A stretch of 26,232 nt of DNA from a virus: positions 1 to 26,232 of IMG/VR virus record IMGVR_UViG_3300035670_001116. One strand, 5' to 3'. The position numbers and the translations under genes are program-made. The notes beneath the pieces are model-generated. The model was not told where the DNA came from. It was given only the letters and a program-made list of their open reading frames with translations, and did not search any database. Numbering within the stretch: position 1 is the first letter of the stretch; each line of letters starts with the position of its first letter. Shown here one piece after another: positions 2,167 to 10,489 of this stretch.

Positions 2167-2802
2167 TTACCAAGTAATTGCTTCGACTTCTTCGGCGGTC
2201 TGCGCGGCGTCAATCTGCGCCCTCAGTACACGACCTTTTTCATGGGTGGAGGTGATGTGTGTCAGCATGGCAAAGCCCACTGTGATCACCTGATCAGCAT
2301 CGAGCACCACGGCAGTGTTGTCTGCAAGTGTCCACTCTACACTGAACGGTTGACCGGCGTCTTTGGCGATTTTCGCGGCAATAGCAGTGCCTGTGATTCG
2401 GCTTCGGCTTTCGCTGTCACTGTCGAATGTTCCAATACCTTCGACGGTAAAGCCTGCTGACTCTTGAGTATCCCTCGCAGCCTTTATCTCGGCCCACTTG
2501 CGCGCCTTCAGGCTTTCGAGGTCGCCTTCGACCTTCTCGGGCAGATAAGTTCCGCCGAAGAAGGGGTTGCCCTCGGTCACGGTCAAAGCCCTTTCGAGCG
2601 AGCCGTAAGGGTCATTCACGTCCAGCGCAGTAACTGGCAGCTTGGGATATTCCTGCCAGAGCAGGAAGGCGTCAGTGCCTTTCGACTCGTCAGGGTAAGA
2701 CCTGACTTCCAGCCCCAAGCCTTCCGGCTTGAGGGAGGCCTTAGCTACCCGGTGGAAGGTCGAGAGGCCGTTTCCGGTCATGAAGTTTTTAGAGATAGGC
2801 AT
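2167..2802 (-). CDS. DUF4376 domain protein, probable tail-tip/fibre associated
   Basis: The 211-residue protein has a C-terminal half (about residues 93-205) that looks like the DUF4376 family: LKARKWAEIKAARD, then a GFTVEGIGTFDSDSESRSRI stretch and a helical end. This family is often found in or next to phage tail fibre and fibre-assembly proteins. The N-terminal part (residues 1-90) includes a short EVRSYPDESKGTD region with no clear relatives. It starts ten bases after the J-like gene with AAGGAG at good spacing, so it is co-transcribed with the tip proteins. It may be a fibre accessory, assembly factor or minor tail protein. The domain call is fairly secure but the function is inferred from position. 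Confidence 0.7.
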   Translation of the reverse strand: MPISKNFMTGNGLSTFHRVAKASLKPEGLGLEVRSYPDESKGTDAFLLWQEYPKLPVTALDVNDPYGSLERALTVTEGNPFFGGTYLPEKVEGDLESLKARKWAEIKAARDTQESAGFTVEGIGTFDSDSESRSRITGTAIAAKIAKDAGQPFSVEWTLADNTAVVLDADQVITVGFAMLTHITSTHEKGRVLRAQIDAAQTAEEVEAITW

Positions 2803-2812
2803 TCGGTGCTCC

Positions 2813-5800
2813 TTAGCGTTTGATAGAGTTTAAAGTAATACTCACATTTCTCACGTACCTGTATGCTGCGTCTGGGGGGCTATCAGCTGTACTTCTTACA
2901 GAAAGCTCAACCTGATAAGCCTTTCCTGGCAGTATAAGAGGGTCAAGCCTGAATGAGAGTTCAGTGCTGCCTGAAGTTGTTGCCCCTAGGTCCAAAGTGT
3001 AACTAACTGTACCTCCAGAACGTCTGTAAACTGAGACTTTAAGTTGGGCAACACCAGTCTGTGAAACATTTAGCAAGAACTTAAACAGCCCAGACACTTC
3101 AAGTATAGAGACCTGGTATTCTGACACAGGTATAGTCCGTATCACGTTGAAAGTGTTGTTTCTCCATATGGTGTATGTTGCAGAGTCTCCATACTCAAAT
3201 ACCTCAGTGATACTTCCCGGAGCTAGTTGAGCTTCACCGATAACATTAAGTTTGTTCAGCTGCAGACCATTAGTCTCGTCGTAGGTAAGGTCGTTACCCA
3301 GCTTAAACATGGTAGTAGCGCCTGTCGCACTAAGGTTCCAGTACGAAGTGTTTGCCGCATTCTGAATCCGGCCAGCTGTCACGGTGCCCATGTTGGCCGC
3401 AATAGCAGACAAGGTTGTAACGCTAAGCTTGTCAGCGGTAATAGTGCTGGCAGCTATCTTGACAGCAGTCACAGAGTTCGCCGCAAGTTTGTCTACCGTG
3501 ATAGCACCAGCGCTCACCTTGTCTGCTGTCACGGCATTCGCTGCGAGTTGGGTAGCCGTGACAGAGTTCGCCGCAAGTTTGGTCACGTCGATGCTACCTG
3601 CGCCGATGCGCGCAGCGTTCAACGTGCCAGCGTTGATCTTGTCAGCTGACAGATTCCCTATATGCGCATTGACAATCGCACCATCTTGAATAGCAGCAGT
3701 GCCTACAGCAATGGCATTGGCAGCGATCTTGTTGGCGGTAATGGCACCGTCAACAATCAGCGCGGAGTCTTGCTTCAGACGTACACGAGGGTTGCCTATA
3801 AACAGACCTGCTGCAGCAGCATTGGTATAAACCGCAAGGAATCGGAACCTCACAAATGCGGTAGTAGCAGTGGCTGTGTAGTCGAACTCCAAGGACACCG
3901 TAGTGGCAGCTGCCGCAGGTGTGGTACGGTAATCGGTGGTGTAAGCATTTACAGATGTTGTACCTGTAGAGCCGTTCGAGGTGTAACCTTGAAGGTTTAA
4001 CTGTCCACGACCGTTCCAGCCAGCAGCGATATAGACATCTATAGTTACTCTGTAGGCCCTCCCAGGCTCCACGCTCATAAAGTATTCTTTAGCGCGGTTG
4101 TAAAGTTCCGTGTTAGACGTGCTGCCAGCCACGTTAGCCATTACAGGGCTGCAATTGAGTGCAGCCACTGCAGCGGCGTCCGTAGACGTTACCATATTAG
4201 TGTACCAATACACCAAGTCCTTGAACTCGGTATCCGAAAGCATGTTGCTGCGGTCAGCAACGACAAGCTTGCTTGCAGTAATGGCGTTAGCTGCGATCTG
4301 ATCTGCGCTTACAGCGCCTGCGGCAATCGTACCAGCGGTGACTGCGTTAGCTGCGATCTTGCCTGCGGTGACTGCGTTAGCTGCGATTGCGCCAGCGGTG
4401 ACTGCATTAGCAGCGATAGCTGTAGCAGTTACAGCATTTGCTGCAATCTTGCCTGCTGTAATAGCGCCGTCAACGATCAAGTTCGCACCATTCATCCTGC
4501 GAACAGTAATAGAGCCGAAGTAGCCACCAGTAGCCGCACCAGACAGCAGTCGGAAACCGATCTGCATGCGCTGGCGGGTGCCTGTCGCGATCTCGAAGGT
4601 CTTATAGACACCTGCCGAGGCTGCCGTGTCGCTATTTTGCACAACCTCGGCATCCCAGGTTACGGCAGAGTTGCTTGTCTTAGACCCGAGTCTCGTAACG
4701 ATCTGCAGGGTTGCCGCAGAAGCCGCCTGTCTAGCAGACTGCATAGACACAAGGTACTGGCTATTCGGTTCGACCTGGAAACCCATTGCTGGGTAAGCCC
4801 AAACGGTAGCATCAGCAGTTGCCGCAGAAGAAGCCGGGATAAGTATCACACGGCGGCCCCCGAACGAAGAGTTAGCGCTGGCGAAGCTGAATGAGGTGGT
4901 CGAAGAGTATCCACTGTCGTCCTGCATGTCGAAGTCAGGATACGCATTCGACGTGTCAGAAAGGACCATCTTAGACGCCACAACGGAACCTGCAGCAAGT
5001 TCCGTAGCGGTCACAGCACCGGCAGCAATCGTAGCAGTAGTCACGGCGTTTGCCGCGATTGTGCCTGCAGTAATTGCATTAGCAGCGATCTTGCCTGCTA
5101 CAACGGAGTTCGCAGCAAGTTGGGTAGCCGTCACCGAGTTGGAGGCAAGTTCAGTAGCAGTGACAGAGCCAGCAGCGATCTTGCCTGCTGTCACGGAGTT
5201 AGCGCCGAGTTCTGTCGCTGTGATCGTGCCTGCTGCAATGTGAGTAGCGGTGATCGTGTTAGCGGCAATCTTCGCGGCGGTTACGGCTCCGTCAACGATA
5301 AGTTCCCCTGCCGCCATCGGGCGCAGTACAGGGTTACGAATCCACAGATAGCCGCCTACGTTAGTAGATTGATTGTCCTGTGCAAACACCTTGAGGCGAA
5401 CTACTACGCTTGCTGGTGCAGTAAGCGTGGCAGAGTACGAAGCGAACACATTCGCAGACGGGACCACGAAGTTGCCGATGAATAGCCGGGTAGCAAACTG
5501 ATTTCCATTAACATCTACAAGTTCAAACACCTGACTTGAGTTCGCTGTCTGAGACTTGAGGTCCACGTTGAACAGATACGTGGAGCCTTTCTGTATTTCA
5601 AAAGTAGTAAAAAGTGTAGTGATGGTCTTGTGCTGCAGCCATACAGAGGGGTCAACAGTATTGCGCCCAAACCCAGCCGCTAACCAGGAAGTCGCGTTAC
5701 CTGCGATATTCCAGTCGGCAGTATCAGGAATCAGGTTCGTGGTAGAGCTGATTACAAGTTTGTCGGCAGTAATCGCCCTTGCAGCGATCTCTGCAGCAGT

Positions 5801-8800
5801 CACTGCACCAGCAGCGATCTTCGCAGTCGTAACAGAGTTTGCGGCTATCTCATTCGCTGTCACGGCATTCGCAGCAATCTTGCCAGCAGTCACTGCTCCG
5901 GCTGCGATGGAGTTTGCCGTGATGGCATTGGCAGCAACCTTGTCAGCGGTCACTGCACCGTCAACGATCAATTCCCCGCGAGCCATCTCAGTGACGCGGA
6001 AGCCTCCCCACTGGGACTCTACAATCGGAGCTGCGCTCCCGTAGTTCAGGTACGCACCAGCGGTAAAGTAGGCAGCCTTTGGAGGGAACTGGGCAACACC
6101 GTTCGGGCCGACAGTCAGAGCCGTGCGCGTCCAAGTCGTAGGCGTTACCGCGCTGACTGCTGGGAAGTAGAAGTTACCGGAGGATGCGTTTGTCCCAGGC
6201 CATCCAGCGCCGGGGTTCGGAGCGTCAGCCCCTGTCAGCAGCGCGCCGTTAGCGTCGTAGAACCGGATTGACGCGAAAGCACGGTTTGTCTGCGCGGCTG
6301 TAGCAATGAACCATGTCTCAAACAGGTATGTCTTGCTAGTGTCGATGGGTGTCATGTACGCTGCAGGAACCTGCATGCTTGTGGCGATAGAGGTCGCCAG
6401 CACGTTAGGTCCGGGAGCACCTTCGACAACCTTGCGTGTAAAGTTGGCGTTGGCCCACATGTCAGCGTCCTGGAAGAACGGATCGACGTTCACGGTGTCG
6501 GTAGCCGTTACAACCAACTTGCCTGCAGTAACCGACCCTGCGGCAAGTTCACGGGTGTTCACCGCACCGGCTGCAATCTTGCCAGCGGTGATAGCGTCCG
6601 CAGCCACGGTGCCAGCTGTCACAGCATTGGCGGCAATCTTGCCAGCAACGACAGCATTAGCTGCCAGCTTAGGTGTCGTGATCGCATTGTCAGCGATCTG
6701 AGTCGCAGCGATCTGACCTACGATGTCACCCACAACTACTTCAGCAGTGTACTTAGTACCGTCCCAACGGTAGAGCTTGCCGTTCCAGCTGATGACGGTA
6801 GTTGTCTTGGTGGTCGGCAGGGACGCACCAGTTGCCAGAGTCACAGGCTCGATAGAACTTGCAAACTTCGTAGCGTCAACTGCACCTGCAGCGATCTGGC
6901 CCGAGCTGATCGTACCTGTCAGGTCTGCTGTGGGAACTGCAGAGGTGTACGCGGTGCCGCTCCAGCGGTACAGCTTGCCCTGGAACGTGATCGTTTCGGT
7001 AGTCTTTACCGTAGGCAAGGTGGAGCCGGAAACGACCGTCACAGGCTCGATGCCGCTGGCAAACTTTGCAACATTCACAGCGCCTGCAGCGATCTTGTCA
7101 GACGTAACAGCATTCGTAGCCAACTTCCCAGCTTCAACTGCACCAGCAGCAATCTTCGACACGGTCACTGCGTTGTCAGCCAGCTTCGTGCTGTCGATCT
7201 GACCTGTCAAGTCTGCTGTGGCTACTTCAGCGGAATACTTTGTGCCGTCCCAGCGATAAAGCTTACCGTTCCACGACAGCACAGACCCCTGGCTAGTCGT
7301 AGGCAGAGACCCACCCGACCAAATCTTTACAAGCTCCACACCTGCAGCAATCTTTGCCGCATCAACAGCCCCAGCCGCGATCTTTTGCGCTGTAACAGAG
7401 CCGTCAGCCAACTCTCCAGCTGGGGGCAGCACATAAGTCGTACCGTCCCATGTGTAGAGCTTTCCTTCCCACGTAAGATTGTCGGTTGTCTTTGTAGCTG
7501 GTAGCGAACTGCCTGTCCAAATTGTCACAGGCTGGATGCTGTTCGCAAACTTGGTGGCGTCGATAGCCTCTGCAGCAAGTTTAGAGCCGCTGATAGACCC
7601 ATCTGCCAGCTTCGCTGCAAGGTCGAGATCGTCAGACAGGTCTGCATCGCCAACCTTACCAGCAGCGATGGTCACTGGAGTAGCTGTGTGCGCGGACTCT
7701 ATGCCGTCAACGCTTGTCCAAGTTGCCCAGAACAGGTACGTCTTGCCTATCTCGACGGTTGCCGTGCCGTGTGTACCTGGGGTCTCCGCAGCAAGTGTTG
7801 CGCTCGAAAAGGTAGGCAGTGGCTGGCCCTGCACAACCTCCGCATAGTAGAACTTTGTCGTCTTGTGACCATGGCCGACCGTGTAGGCAGGCAAGTCAGT
7901 GTACAGTGTAGCAACGGACAGCCCTACGAAACCAGCAAAGCCTGTAGGCTCGGGTGGAGGTGTGAGGTCAGGTACACGTTCTTGGTTGAAGTTCTCTTCA
8001 AGTATGACTTGACGAACCAGCATACCTTCAGAGAGCTTGCCGCTGCGGTTCCTCGCACGGCAGGCGAATGTCCAAGTGCCAGCTTCAGGCTGCGTAGTGT
8101 TGAACGCGCTGGTGTAGTAACCTGCGTCCAGAGGTGTCATGTCCTCCCAGGTAAAGGTCTCTGGATGCCCGATAAGGTAGCGAATCTCTGCACCGGCAAG
8201 GTCCGGTGGAGGGTCCATAGTTGTGTACTCGAAGTTGAACCTTCGAACACCTCCAGGAAGTTCCTGTACCGTGAAAATGTCGTAGTTGCGCGGCGGCTTC
8301 GCGTTGACAGTGATAGTCGTAACGGCACTTTCTGTCCACACGGACGGTATATCTCTTGCCGATATGGCGCGTACTCGCGCAACGTAGTCTCCAGCGAATA
8401 CGTTGTTGACTTCCACTTCTCGCAGCTGAGTAGTGGGCATACGTACCCAACCAGCGTTGGAGCGGTTCCACTCTACACCGTACCTGACTGCGTTCTCTAC
8501 AGAGGGCCAGGAAAGGGTAATAGTTACGCTGGCTGTTCCGTCAGCCGCGACCCTGTCTTCTGGCTGAATAGTGATGCTCGCAGGCGCAGCCTGCACGCCT
8601 GGAGGGATGATCGTCACCGGCTTGGGGTCGACCTTGGTGCCATTGTCGATGAACGCAAACTTTTGGCGCTCATGCTGCAGCGCTGTTACTGCGAATGTTC
8701 CGTCGCCATTGTCCTTTACAGAAAGTATAGAAAACTCTCTGGAAGCCACTTCGTCGGTATCTACACACCAGTTAGCTCCAGGCACAGGTGTGGCACCGAA

Positions 8801-10489
8801 ACCTGCGTCTGCAACAATGGTCTGCACCCCGTCTACTGTCGTGGTAGACTGGATGTAGCGGGATGCTGCGATACCGCTAGGCAAGTTGACTGTAACGACA
8901 TCCCCAATTACCACGTCAACTGGCTTGTCAAGTACAATACTGTTCTCTGTTGCAGAGACTATACGACCCCCCAGGCGCTTTCCTGCGAAAGCGGAGTCCA
9001 TGATCTTCACGATCTTGCCTGGAGTGACAAGTTGGCCGGACCTGTCCACAGTAAAGACCACAGTCTGAGTCTCAAACTTGGAAGACATCAAGGCCCACTG
9101 ACCCATACGCTGGGCCTGAGCCTCGCTGGTGCATCCGAAAGCTGTAATCTCAACCTTGTTGACACCGTAGCGGCGAATACCTTCAGCATCTTGGACATAG
9201 GCAATCTTCTGCCGGCCCAGATCGGTCATGTCGTTGTAAGACACCACGGCCACCGTGTAGCGCTGCTCTATATCCGTGCCAGAGTACGAGAACCTTCCGC
9301 CAACCACATTCGTCTGATTGTAGTTGTAGACAGGGTCACGAGGCATGTCAGCGACTGTCTCGATGGCCGAGCTAGACCAGTAGGTCATGCCTCGGAATAT
9401 GCTGACCAAGTCCTGCAAAACCTTGTATGCGTCTGCATCCTTCTGCAGGTAGACGTTGCAAGTGAATCGCGGTTCGACACCACCCTTGCCGTCCGAAACA
9501 AGTTCGTCGCAATACGCTCCGATCTGGTACAGCGCACCCTTGTTCAGCAGACTCTCATTGACCAGCTTACCAAGTCCGTAACGCTTGTGCGTAGCAAGGT
9601 CATAGAACACCCACGCAGGGTTGTTCGTGTAAGCGATCTTGAATTGTCCGTTCCACACACCTGTGTAGGTACGTGCCACTGGGTCGTAGTTCACAGGGAC
9701 ACGCACGCGGCGTCCGCGCATCCTGGATGCGCGTGTAGGTACGCTACGGAATTGCTGGGCATCGACCCGGATACCCATCAAGGCACTGTTGGGGTAGCGC
9801 AGCTTTGCGTCGATGACTTCGGCAAAGTTGTCGATCAACGTACCATCGGCGATGGTAGAACTGTTCGCATCAGGCGTGGTCCTTGTCACACGGACCATCC
9901 AGCCTGTCGTGGCCTTCGGCAAGTCGATTCGGTGTGTCCTTCGATAGGTCGAGGTTGTCTTACCTGTCAAAGAACTGTCAATAACAGTCTCCCACGCACC
10001 GCCATCAGTCTGTAGTTCGATCAGGTAGGCTACCGTGTAGCCAGAAATGTCACCATTCGAAGTATTGGCCTTGCTCAGACCATTGGTGCCGAGTGTAATA
10101 CGTACCGCCGAAAGCTCCTTATTGGTAACACTTCGAACCCACGGAGTTCCGTGTTTCAGCTCTACACCGATGACTGTCGTAGCTTCCACAGTTGGGAAGC
10201 CTTTGATATAGTCTTGATCTACCGTACCGCTTCGGTAGTCAATTGTAACGTCGCTGAAGTTCAGAGTACCGTCAGCATTCTCTACCGGAGTTCCGTCGAG
10301 AAGCACGTTCTTGAGGCCGTCTACAGGACCCTCAATCTCGCCTTCCGACAGCAAGTCGAGGACCGCAGCGTAGGTAACGCTGTGCAGACTGTCTCGGGCT
10401 TCCACAGGTGCGCGGCCTCCACCGCCTCCCTTGCCCTTGCTGCCTACAATACGAAACCCACCCTTATAATTCTCGACCACGGTATTCAT
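2813..10489 (-). CDS. J: Giant J-like central tail tip/host specificity protein
   Basis: At 2558 residues this is about twice the size of lambda J. Residues 1 to about 620 are the J core, including the glycine-rich N-terminus, SVTYAAVLDLLSEGEIEGPV and WQ-type ring domains. Fibronectin III-like domains follow at about 630-950, beginning near SITIQPEDRVAADG. From about 950 to 2370 there is an array of 10-residue units (for example AANAVTAGKI). It is interrupted by four short WDG modules (about 987-1250) and four sandwich-like domains of about 150-175 residues (near 1327-1502, 1579-1727, 1846-2000 and 2077-2239). The C-terminus (about 2367-2558) starts like the DUF1983 end of J proteins (ANMGTVTAGRI) and finishes in a small beta-rich domain, the likely receptor-binding part. 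Its ATG overlaps the I-like stop (ATGA). The core acts as the tail tip hub. The roles of the inserted domains are inferred. Confidence 0.93.
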   Translation of the reverse strand: MNTVVENYKGGFRIVGSKGKGGGGGRAPVEARDSLHSVTYAAVLDLLSEGEIEGPVDGLKNVLLDGTPVENADGTLNFSDVTIDYRSGTVDQDYIKGFPTVEATTVIGVELKHGTPWVRSVTNKELSAVRITLGTNGLSKANTSNGDISGYTVAYLIELQTDGGAWETVIDSSLTGKTTSTYRRTHRIDLPKATTGWMVRVTRTTPDANSSTIADGTLIDNFAEVIDAKLRYPNSALMGIRVDAQQFRSVPTRASRMRGRRVRVPVNYDPVARTYTGVWNGQFKIAYTNNPAWVFYDLATHKRYGLGKLVNESLLNKGALYQIGAYCDELVSDGKGGVEPRFTCNVYLQKDADAYKVLQDLVSIFRGMTYWSSSAIETVADMPRDPVYNYNQTNVVGGRFSYSGTDIEQRYTVAVVSYNDMTDLGRQKIAYVQDAEGIRRYGVNKVEITAFGCTSEAQAQRMGQWALMSSKFETQTVVFTVDRSGQLVTPGKIVKIMDSAFAGKRLGGRIVSATENSIVLDKPVDVVIGDVVTVNLPSGIAASRYIQSTTTVDGVQTIVADAGFGATPVPGANWCVDTDEVASREFSILSVKDNGDGTFAVTALQHERQKFAFIDNGTKVDPKPVTIIPPGVQAAPASITIQPEDRVAADGTASVTITLSWPSVENAVRYGVEWNRSNAGWVRMPTTQLREVEVNNVFAGDYVARVRAISARDIPSVWTESAVTTITVNAKPPRNYDIFTVQELPGGVRRFNFEYTTMDPPPDLAGAEIRYLIGHPETFTWEDMTPLDAGYYTSAFNTTQPEAGTWTFACRARNRSGKLSEGMLVRQVILEENFNQERVPDLTPPPEPTGFAGFVGLSVATLYTDLPAYTVGHGHKTTKFYYAEVVQGQPLPTFSSATLAAETPGTHGTATVEIGKTYLFWATWTSVDGIESAHTATPVTIAAGKVGDADLSDDLDLAAKLADGSISGSKLAAEAIDATKFANSIQPVTIWTGSSLPATKTTDNLTWEGKLYTWDGTTYVLPPAGELADGSVTAQKIAAGAVDAAKIAAGVELVKIWSGGSLPTTSQGSVLSWNGKLYRWDGTKYSAEVATADLTGQIDSTKLADNAVTVSKIAAGAVEAGKLATNAVTSDKIAAGAVNVAKFASGIEPVTVVSGSTLPTVKTTETITFQGKLYRWSGTAYTSAVPTADLTGTISSGQIAAGAVDATKFASSIEPVTLATGASLPTTKTTTVISWNGKLYRWDGTKYTAEVVVGDIVGQIAATQIADNAITTPKLAANAVVAGKIAANAVTAGTVAADAITAGKIAAGAVNTRELAAGSVTAGKLVVTATDTVNVDPFFQDADMWANANFTRKVVEGAPGPNVLATSIATSMQVPAAYMTPIDTSKTYLFETWFIATAAQTNRAFASIRFYDANGALLTGADAPNPGAGWPGTNASSGNFYFPAVSAVTPTTWTRTALTVGPNGVAQFPPKAAYFTAGAYLNYGSAAPIVESQWGGFRVTEMARGELIVDGAVTADKVAANAITANSIAAGAVTAGKIAANAVTANEIAANSVTTAKIAAGAVTAAEIAARAITADKLVISSTTNLIPDTADWNIAGNATSWLAAGFGRNTVDPSVWLQHKTITTLFTTFEIQKGSTYLFNVDLKSQTANSSQVFELVDVNGNQFATRLFIGNFVVPSANVFASYSATLTAPASVVVRLKVFAQDNQSTNVGGYLWIRNPVLRPMAAGELIVDGAVTAAKIAANTITATHIAAGTITATELGANSVTAGKIAAGSVTATELASNSVTATQLAANSVVAGKIAANAITAGTIAANAVTTATIAAGAVTATELAAGSVVASKMVLSDTSNAYPDFDMQDDSGYSSTTSFSFASANSSFGGRRVILIPASSAATADATVWAYPAMGFQVEPNSQYLVSMQSARQAASAATLQIVTRLGSKTSNSAVTWDAEVVQNSDTAASAGVYKTFEIATGTRQRMQIGFRLLSGAATGGYFGSITVRRMNGANLIVDGAITAGKIAANAVTATAIAANAVTAGAIAANAVTAGKIAANAVTAGTIAAGAVSADQIAANAITASKLVVADRSNMLSDTEFKDLVYWYTNMVTSTDAAAVAALNCSPVMANVAGSTSNTELYNRAKEYFMSVEPGRAYRVTIDVYIAAGWNGRGQLNLQGYTSNGSTGTTSVNAYTTDYRTTPAAAATTVSLEFDYTATATTAFVRFRFLAVYTNAAAAGLFIGNPRVRLKQDSALIVDGAITANKIAANAIAVGTAAIQDGAIVNAHIGNLSADKINAGTLNAARIGAGSIDVTKLAANSVTATQLAANAVTADKVSAGAITVDKLAANSVTAVKIAASTITADKLSVTTLSAIAANMGTVTAGRIQNAANTSYWNLSATGATTMFKLGNDLTYDETNGLQLNKLNVIGEAQLAPGSITEVFEYGDSATYTIWRNNTFNVIRTIPVSEYQVSILEVSGLFKFLLNVSQTGVAQLKVSVYRRSGGTVSYTLDLGATTSGSTELSFRLDPLILPGKAYQVELSVRSTADSPPDAAYRYVRNVSITLNSIKR
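3400..7640 (-). repeat. Array of 30-base (10-residue) coding repeats in the J-like gene
   Basis: Within the J-like gene, units of 30 bases encode A-A-(N/G/S)-(A/S)-(V/I)-T-(A/V)-x-x-(I/L). They occur in blocks between the inserted domains. Neighbouring copies can be nearly identical, for example between about 4330 and 4440, where the same GACTGCGTTAGCTGCGAT core recurs. The period, the conserved hydrophobic positions and the fully open frame show a protein repeat, probably an extended beta-helical or fibrous shaft. Confidence 0.9.

Follow-up and report, generated by a model that had tools for sequence, protein, structure and literature searches.

The central tail fibre encoded in a 26,232-nucleotide (nt) stretch of viral DNA (IMG/VR record IMGVR_UViG_3300035670_001116, positions 1 to 26,232; hereafter, the window) is a lambda J-like protein of 2,558 amino acids (aa) whose shaft is interrupted by four domains of different sequence, each placed between the same two short flanks. 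The set of such domains, or cassettes, differs between related phages, and the differences begin and end at the flanks. The whole is probably best explained as a colinear array of exchangeable side-binding modules resembling carbohydrate-binding modules (CBMs), carried on a fibre of the lambda J type. All coordinates are positions in the window, and the cassettes are named D1 to D4 in N- to C-terminal order.

Past residue 960 or so, the protein is a shaft of 10-residue repeats (consensus IAANAVTAGK), interrupted in order by four short GKLYRWDGTKY modules (residues 961-1264) and by four longer domains (150-183 aa). Each of these domains is entered through a K[LM]V motif at the end of a decapeptide block (KLV, KLV, KMV and KLV for D1 to D4) and left through LIVDGA[VI]TA, upon which a new decapeptide block begins. 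As LIVDG occurs four times in this protein, and its relatives have it at the equivalent place in hundreds of instances, the flanked-cassette pattern is not due to chance; LIVDG is the only invariant element in the aligned cassette set. An earlier note on this DNA had described the four domains with their entry and exit motifs, and they are as described, but two details require correction: the boundary at D1 reads TDTVNVDP and not T-N/S-N-x-x-x-D, and the exit of D4 is SALIVDGAITA instead of E/N-LIVDGA. The span that it assigned to the cassettes, 3400-7640, contains all four of them, but the segment 6698-7609 within it is occupied by the different, GKLYRWDGTKY-type module.

A Pfam search of D1-D4 gave no carbohydrate-binding or other convincing family. 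Relatives (designated by L-numbers) are J-type proteins from genome and viral contigs, found with the flank-motif alignment as query. About 240 cassettes were excised, and profiles were built from their cores with both flanks removed, since retained decapeptides inflate similarity. Iterated core profiles seeded with D1, D3 or D4 join all cores and give no hits among reversed sequences; the D2-seeded search stayed among its five close members. When profiles were built leaving out each domain together with its close relatives, D1, D2, D3 and D4 scored 38.6, 42.0, 36.6 and 43.3 bits, respectively, the best of 2,000 shuffles being 12.8 bits overall (12.8 for D2 and 10.2 for D3). The four domains, described earlier as different in sequence, indeed show no clear similarity in pairwise comparison, but by these profiles they are divergent members of one superfamily. 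Used alone as queries, neither D3 nor D4 found a relative by tblastn in 50,697 annotated phage records, and a scan of viral contigs with D4 alone found none.

AlphaFold models of D1 and D4 (predicted local distance difference test, pLDDT, 85 and 84) are beta-sandwiches, as the earlier note had expected, with the jelly-roll of the CBM-like (galactose-binding-like) superfamily; D2 and D3 are assigned to it by profile. When the two models were compared with CBM16, CBM61, CBM4 and the central fibre of phage Douge, Z ranged from 11.8 to 14.8. The best solved match of D4 corresponds to residues 154-344 of the Douge fibre (Z 14.8, 179 residues aligned, root-mean-square deviation (rmsd) 7.3); the values are Z 14.2, 135 aligned and rmsd 2.6 for TmCBM61, and Z 14.0, 139 aligned and rmsd 3.1 for CBM16. 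D1 best matches CBM16 (Z 12.7), Douge (12.6) and CBM4-2 (12.2). The profile of the cassette alignment matches Douge gp20 (2e-9) and chains of CBM22, CBM70 and CBM16 (1e-8 to 1e-7). CBM_4_9 (PF02018) is matched by 22 of 88 related cassettes (best, 6e-13) and not by those of the window, so the relation to this family lies at the superfamily level. The cassette fold recurs in numerous fibre and tail proteins among predicted viral structures. The Foldseek lists also include insecticidal Cry/Vip, meprin and Fbs1 domains, whose likeness is one of fold only. It has been shown that the Douge region matched by D4 (CFP-NTD, the N-terminal domain of the central fibre protein), when expressed alone, binds mycobacterial cells and surface glycans (PMC13033339). 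On account of the CBM matches in fold and profile, and of this glycan-binding domain, glycan binding would be the most likely function of D1-D4.

The main alternative is that the sandwiches, like the intervening domains of other fibres, are spacers, folding clamps or units that trimerise or register the shaft, and that they bind nothing, diverged neutrally and were exchanged because any spacer works. Such a role would agree with the finding that the entry joint and the LIVDG exit are conserved and the surfaces are not, and with the many structural roles that galactose-binding-like folds serve (meprin, Fbs1 and Cry domains are in the match lists); sugar binding by the cassettes, for its part, is inferred. 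However, glycan-binding modules predominate overwhelmingly among the nearest matches, and the nearest phage one is itself a glycan binder (PMC13033339). Moreover, the decapeptide repeats can continue without any cassette, and cassette number ranges from 1 to 7, so a shaft can be built without them. As spacers fit the CBM matches less well than side-displayed glycan binders do, we consider this explanation unlikely.

That modules are gained, lost or swapped, as the earlier note proposed, is seen directly in near-identical proteins. Relatives do not all carry the same four domains in the same order: with clusters cut at 40% identity, in other phages and prophages 111 J-type proteins have 1-7 detected cassettes each, of about 118 clusters and in 91 distinct combinations, these cassette, cluster and combination counts being approximate because the automatic segmentation cut short or missed some cassettes. 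The window array is c1-c9-c8-c11. Among relatives, L002 has c1-c7-c11-c3, L004 c1-c7-c26-c12-c3, L005 c13-c27-c14-c1-c20-c8-c3, L055 the same set without c27 (c13-c14-c1-c20-c8-c3), L049 c35-c6-c12-c11 and L051 c35-c1-c12-c3. Single cassettes are shared among close relatives at 84-98% identity, beside different neighbours. D1, which heads the detected cassettes of the window and comes fourth among those of L005, is 94% identical in L002 and 86% in L005, and the cassettes to its right are unrelated; it thus behaves as the shared domain of a mosaic receptor-binding protein (a domain at least 70% identical between proteins that differ elsewhere). At the edges of the array, 65 of 76 residues of the block ahead of the first slot are the same in the window and L005, the first cassette being of a different type, and 61-64 of 75 residues past the last slot are shared with L002, L004 or L050, where the last cassette is of another type.

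Cassette arrays are found on lambda-type J heads (the window, L007, L065, L050 and L010), behind a phrog_5616 tail-fibre head (L014 and L017) and, in L002 (start MATTSRKDLPGTNAPNWSQRVTEELRVLMG), on a protein with no J head recognisable by family search. L003, L004, L005, L049, L051 and L055 have the same kind of cassette shaft and no recognisable J head, the family search having covered L002 only. The presence of cassette shafts on proteins of this kind indicates that the shaft is portable between tail-tip types. In L014, L017 and other Rhizobium loci, the related cassettes follow a phrog_5616 head, and one cassette type (c0) often stands both early in the array and in the last slot. The C-terminal tips past the array are of differing types (L002, L004 and L055 versus L005, L049 and L051), independently of cassette content, and the tip is probably exchanged separately from the cassettes.

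The seams of exchange were located from DNA identity profiles. Starts of high-scoring segment pairs at LIVDG were taken as weak evidence, as any decapeptide block aligns to any other. L002, L003 and L004 show 92-94% DNA identity until a decapeptide block ends and a cassette starts; the cassette that follows is unrelated in each, and between L002 and L004 an identity of about 94% returns in a block further downstream. In 22 pairs of like cassettes (at least 75% identity) with different right neighbours, mean DNA identity is 0.77-0.89 over the last 180 nt of the cassette (about 0.85) and 0.88 at LIVDG, 0.72 over the next 15 nt, and 0.51-0.68 from there on. On the left side, identity rises from 0.2-0.6 to about 0.9 at the preceding LIVDG in the pairs L004/L051 and L002/L004, which indicates a joint transfer of the cassette and the block before it. 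Between L005 and L055, sharing is limited to the cassette, the block being no more similar than background, which places the seam at K[LM]V. The moving unit thus can, judging from these sequences, include the upstream decapeptide block, with its seam at LIVDG. The idea that LIVDG marks a fixed site of DNA recombination was rejected, since its codons vary synonymously, even within one gene. The variation observed is whole-domain replacement; for a diversity-generating retroelement, no reverse transcriptase was found in a PHROGs scan of 20 neighbouring open reading frames, the contig being a fragment and no dedicated test having been made.

Within the close group, shared cassettes never occur in conflicting order, which is equalled by 0.12% of shuffles when one close relative is dropped; in the whole set, a few cluster pairs are inconsistently ordered. 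On this ground, free permutation was rejected for the close group, a caveat being that common descent would likewise keep the order. Exchange therein seems to proceed by in-register (colinear) replacement, by gain and by loss, and not by free permutation. The conflict-free order is also what would be predicted if the arrays descended from one large ancestral array by ancient lineage divergence and losses, with no exchange between phages. We find this improbable, as L002, L003 and L004 are nearly identical left of the break, L002 and L004 are so again downstream, and unrelated cassettes lie between; D1 is nearly identical in the window and L002 beside a different right-hand cassette, and at least 20 cassette types would have been needed in one ancestor. 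Misassembly of what is a repetitive gene is a very remote explanation, since the longest exact repeat in eight J genes is 23-79 nt, which is too short, contigs independent of one another repeat the same cassettes and parts of the same architectures, and the cassettes are whole, in-frame open domains.

We propose that a decapeptide-repeat shaft, probably trimeric, displays colinear CBM4/9/16-like beta-sandwich domains as side-binding modules, each with its own evolved surface, most likely for a different host-envelope glycan. The cassettes would raise the avidity or the range of first contact, ahead of commitment by the C-terminal tip. The K[LM]V entry and LIVDGA[VI]TA exit may be structural joints that bring the chain back to the shaft in register, and since such joints keep the register, any cassette would fit any slot. 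In-frame crossovers in similar joint and decapeptide DNA could then yield viable new arrays, on which selection for altered host recognition may act; general crossover between similar repeats would be the simplest route.

Several points weigh against this proposal. Seam pairs are few (22 on the right side and three detailed ones on the left), and as LIVDG is conserved at the protein level, selection acting on the joint, and not the exact crossover point, could be part of the reason why similarity ends there. The models cover D1 and D4, D2 and D3 being placed by profile only. None of D1-D4 matches PF02018 at E up to 1, nor do D1-D3 with their flanks at 0.5. Sugar binding by D1-D4 is argued from fold and precedent, and the shaft is taken as probably trimeric.

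More tentatively, and with less than even confidence, the decapeptide shaft with LIVDG joints might be a general docking scaffold in J-type and other tail fibres, in phages of several bacterial phyla, drawing on a pool of more than 100 cassette types. Its joints would be kept partly as in-frame recombination seams, and host recognition would be combinatorial along one fibre.

The window is a piece of a siphovirus structural operon on the minus strand. The PHROGs scan identified a head protease, a major head protein, a tail terminator, a tape measure and homologues of M, L, K, I and J, and the order tape measure - M - L - K - I - J is that of lambda J-type loci. The head of the J-like protein also belongs to the lambda J type by sequence (FNIII-A_GpJ, Phage-tail_3, phrog_31). 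Taking into account that the lambda J chain has 1,132 aa, the window protein exceeds it by about 1,426 aa. The earlier view that the cassettes explain most of the doubled size is roughly right: the cassettes alone amount to 670 aa, and together with the shaft blocks (residues 1324-2355) to about 1,031 aa. The modules ahead of the cassettes follow the pattern F(A/V)xxI(E/Q)PV...SLPT.K(T)T...GKLY.WDGT.Y, four times in the window and in 0 to 5 copies in relatives; their sole Pfam hint, CBM_5_12_2, is below cutoff. Directly downstream of J (2167-2802, minus strand), a 211-aa protein has tail-fibre/tail-protein matches (phrog_2837, phrog_1141) in its C-terminal half only.

Table 1. Features of the J-like gene, ordered from the N-terminus of the protein.
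Feature	Position	Strand	Evidence
J-like tail-tip/central fibre gene, 2,558 aa	2813..10489	-	PHROG phrog_31 'central tail fiber J'; PDB lambda J and F2-pyocin tail fibre match residues 15-734
J head, residues 15-733, FNIII-A_GpJ and Phage-tail_3 domains	8291..10447	-	Pfam and PDB matches
Shaft segment with four short GKLYxWDGTxY modules, residues 961-1264	6698..7609	-	Module count differs in relatives
Conserved decapeptide block ahead of first cassette slot, residues 1255-1323	6521..6727	-	65/76 residues identical to L005
Cassette D1, cluster c1, residues 1324-1505, CBM-like beta-sandwich (predicted)	5975..6520	-	AlphaFold pLDDT 85; 84-94% identical copies in L002-L005 beside different neighbours
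D1 exit flank LIVDGAVTA	5945..5971	-	Flank motif
Decapeptide block D1-D2	5762..5944	-	Repeats
Cassette D2, cluster c9, residues 1577-1728	5306..5761	-	Leave-one-out profile; c9 members in L010, L079, L087, L095
D2 exit flank LIVDGAVTA	5276..5302	-	Flank motif
Decapeptide block D2-D3	4973..5275	-	Repeats
Cassette D3, cluster c8, residues 1840-2002	4484..4972	-	Leave-one-out profile; relatives in L005, L055, L057
D3 exit flank LIVDGAITA	4454..4480	-	Flank motif
Decapeptide block D3-D4	4271..4453	-	Repeats
Cassette D4, cluster c11, residues 2074-2242	3764..4270	-	AlphaFold pLDDT 84; relatives in L002, L049
D4 exit flank LIVDGAITA	3734..3760	-	Flank motif
Conserved scaffold past last slot (NAIAVGTAAIQDGAIVNAHIGN...) and distal decapeptides	3419..3733	-	61-64/75 residues common to L002, L004, L050
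C-terminal fibre tip	2813..3418	-	No family match in family searches

If the proposed array of side-binding modules is correct, the phage could change which bacterial surfaces it grips, and the idea of a modular phage fibre becomes a readable architecture, with slots, cassettes and seams that can be listed from sequence in more than 100 J-type proteins. This opens the question of whether the cassette set predicts the surface sugars recognised by a phage. The cassettes are also a ready-made collection of candidate glycan binders, each small, able to fold on its own and conserved at its boundaries, and their function can be tested directly with pairs of closely related proteins that differ by one cassette.

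Siphophage virions with CBM-like modules (PMC6669499) and receptor-binding proteins with shuffled domains (PMC10684548) are already known; we found no description, in the open-licence literature, of a central fibre whose slots form a serial and colinear array and share a recurrent joint. The window protein shares with lambda J (phrog_31) the J head, the place after the K and I genes and the role of central fibre, but lambda J is under half as long, and the match of its solved chain is confined to residues 19-643 of the window protein. The N-terminal domain of Douge gp20 (PDB 8ZDO/8ZDP/8ZDQ; PMC13033339), the best structural match of D4 and the best sequence-profile match, is a CBM-like sandwich as well, belongs to a central tail fibre that is trimeric and lies below the tail hub, and binds host glycans; unlike the window protein, gp20 has a single such domain near its N-terminus and one at its tip, no decapeptide cassette array, and belongs to a different phage lineage. 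The CBM4/9, CBM16, CBM22 and CBM61 families (PF02018 and relatives) are similar in beta-sandwich fold and in profile, whereas the window cassettes are embedded between fixed joints in a phage fibre, lie below Pfam detection and are putative binders. Lactococcal 936 siphophages and evolved Dit proteins (PMC6669499) also use CBMs as interchangeable virion bricks, some of them proven host binders, but there the modules are insertions within Dit, the neck proteins and the major tail proteins and do not occupy serial slots on one central fibre. Finally, Smug et al. (2023; PMC10684548) describe recent, high-identity domain swapping in receptor-binding proteins, to which the exchange reported here is similar; in the tail-fibre and neck-protein examples of that study, C-terminal domains are exchanged on a common N-terminus, whereas the slots of the window protein are internal, follow one another in series and share a recurrent seam motif.

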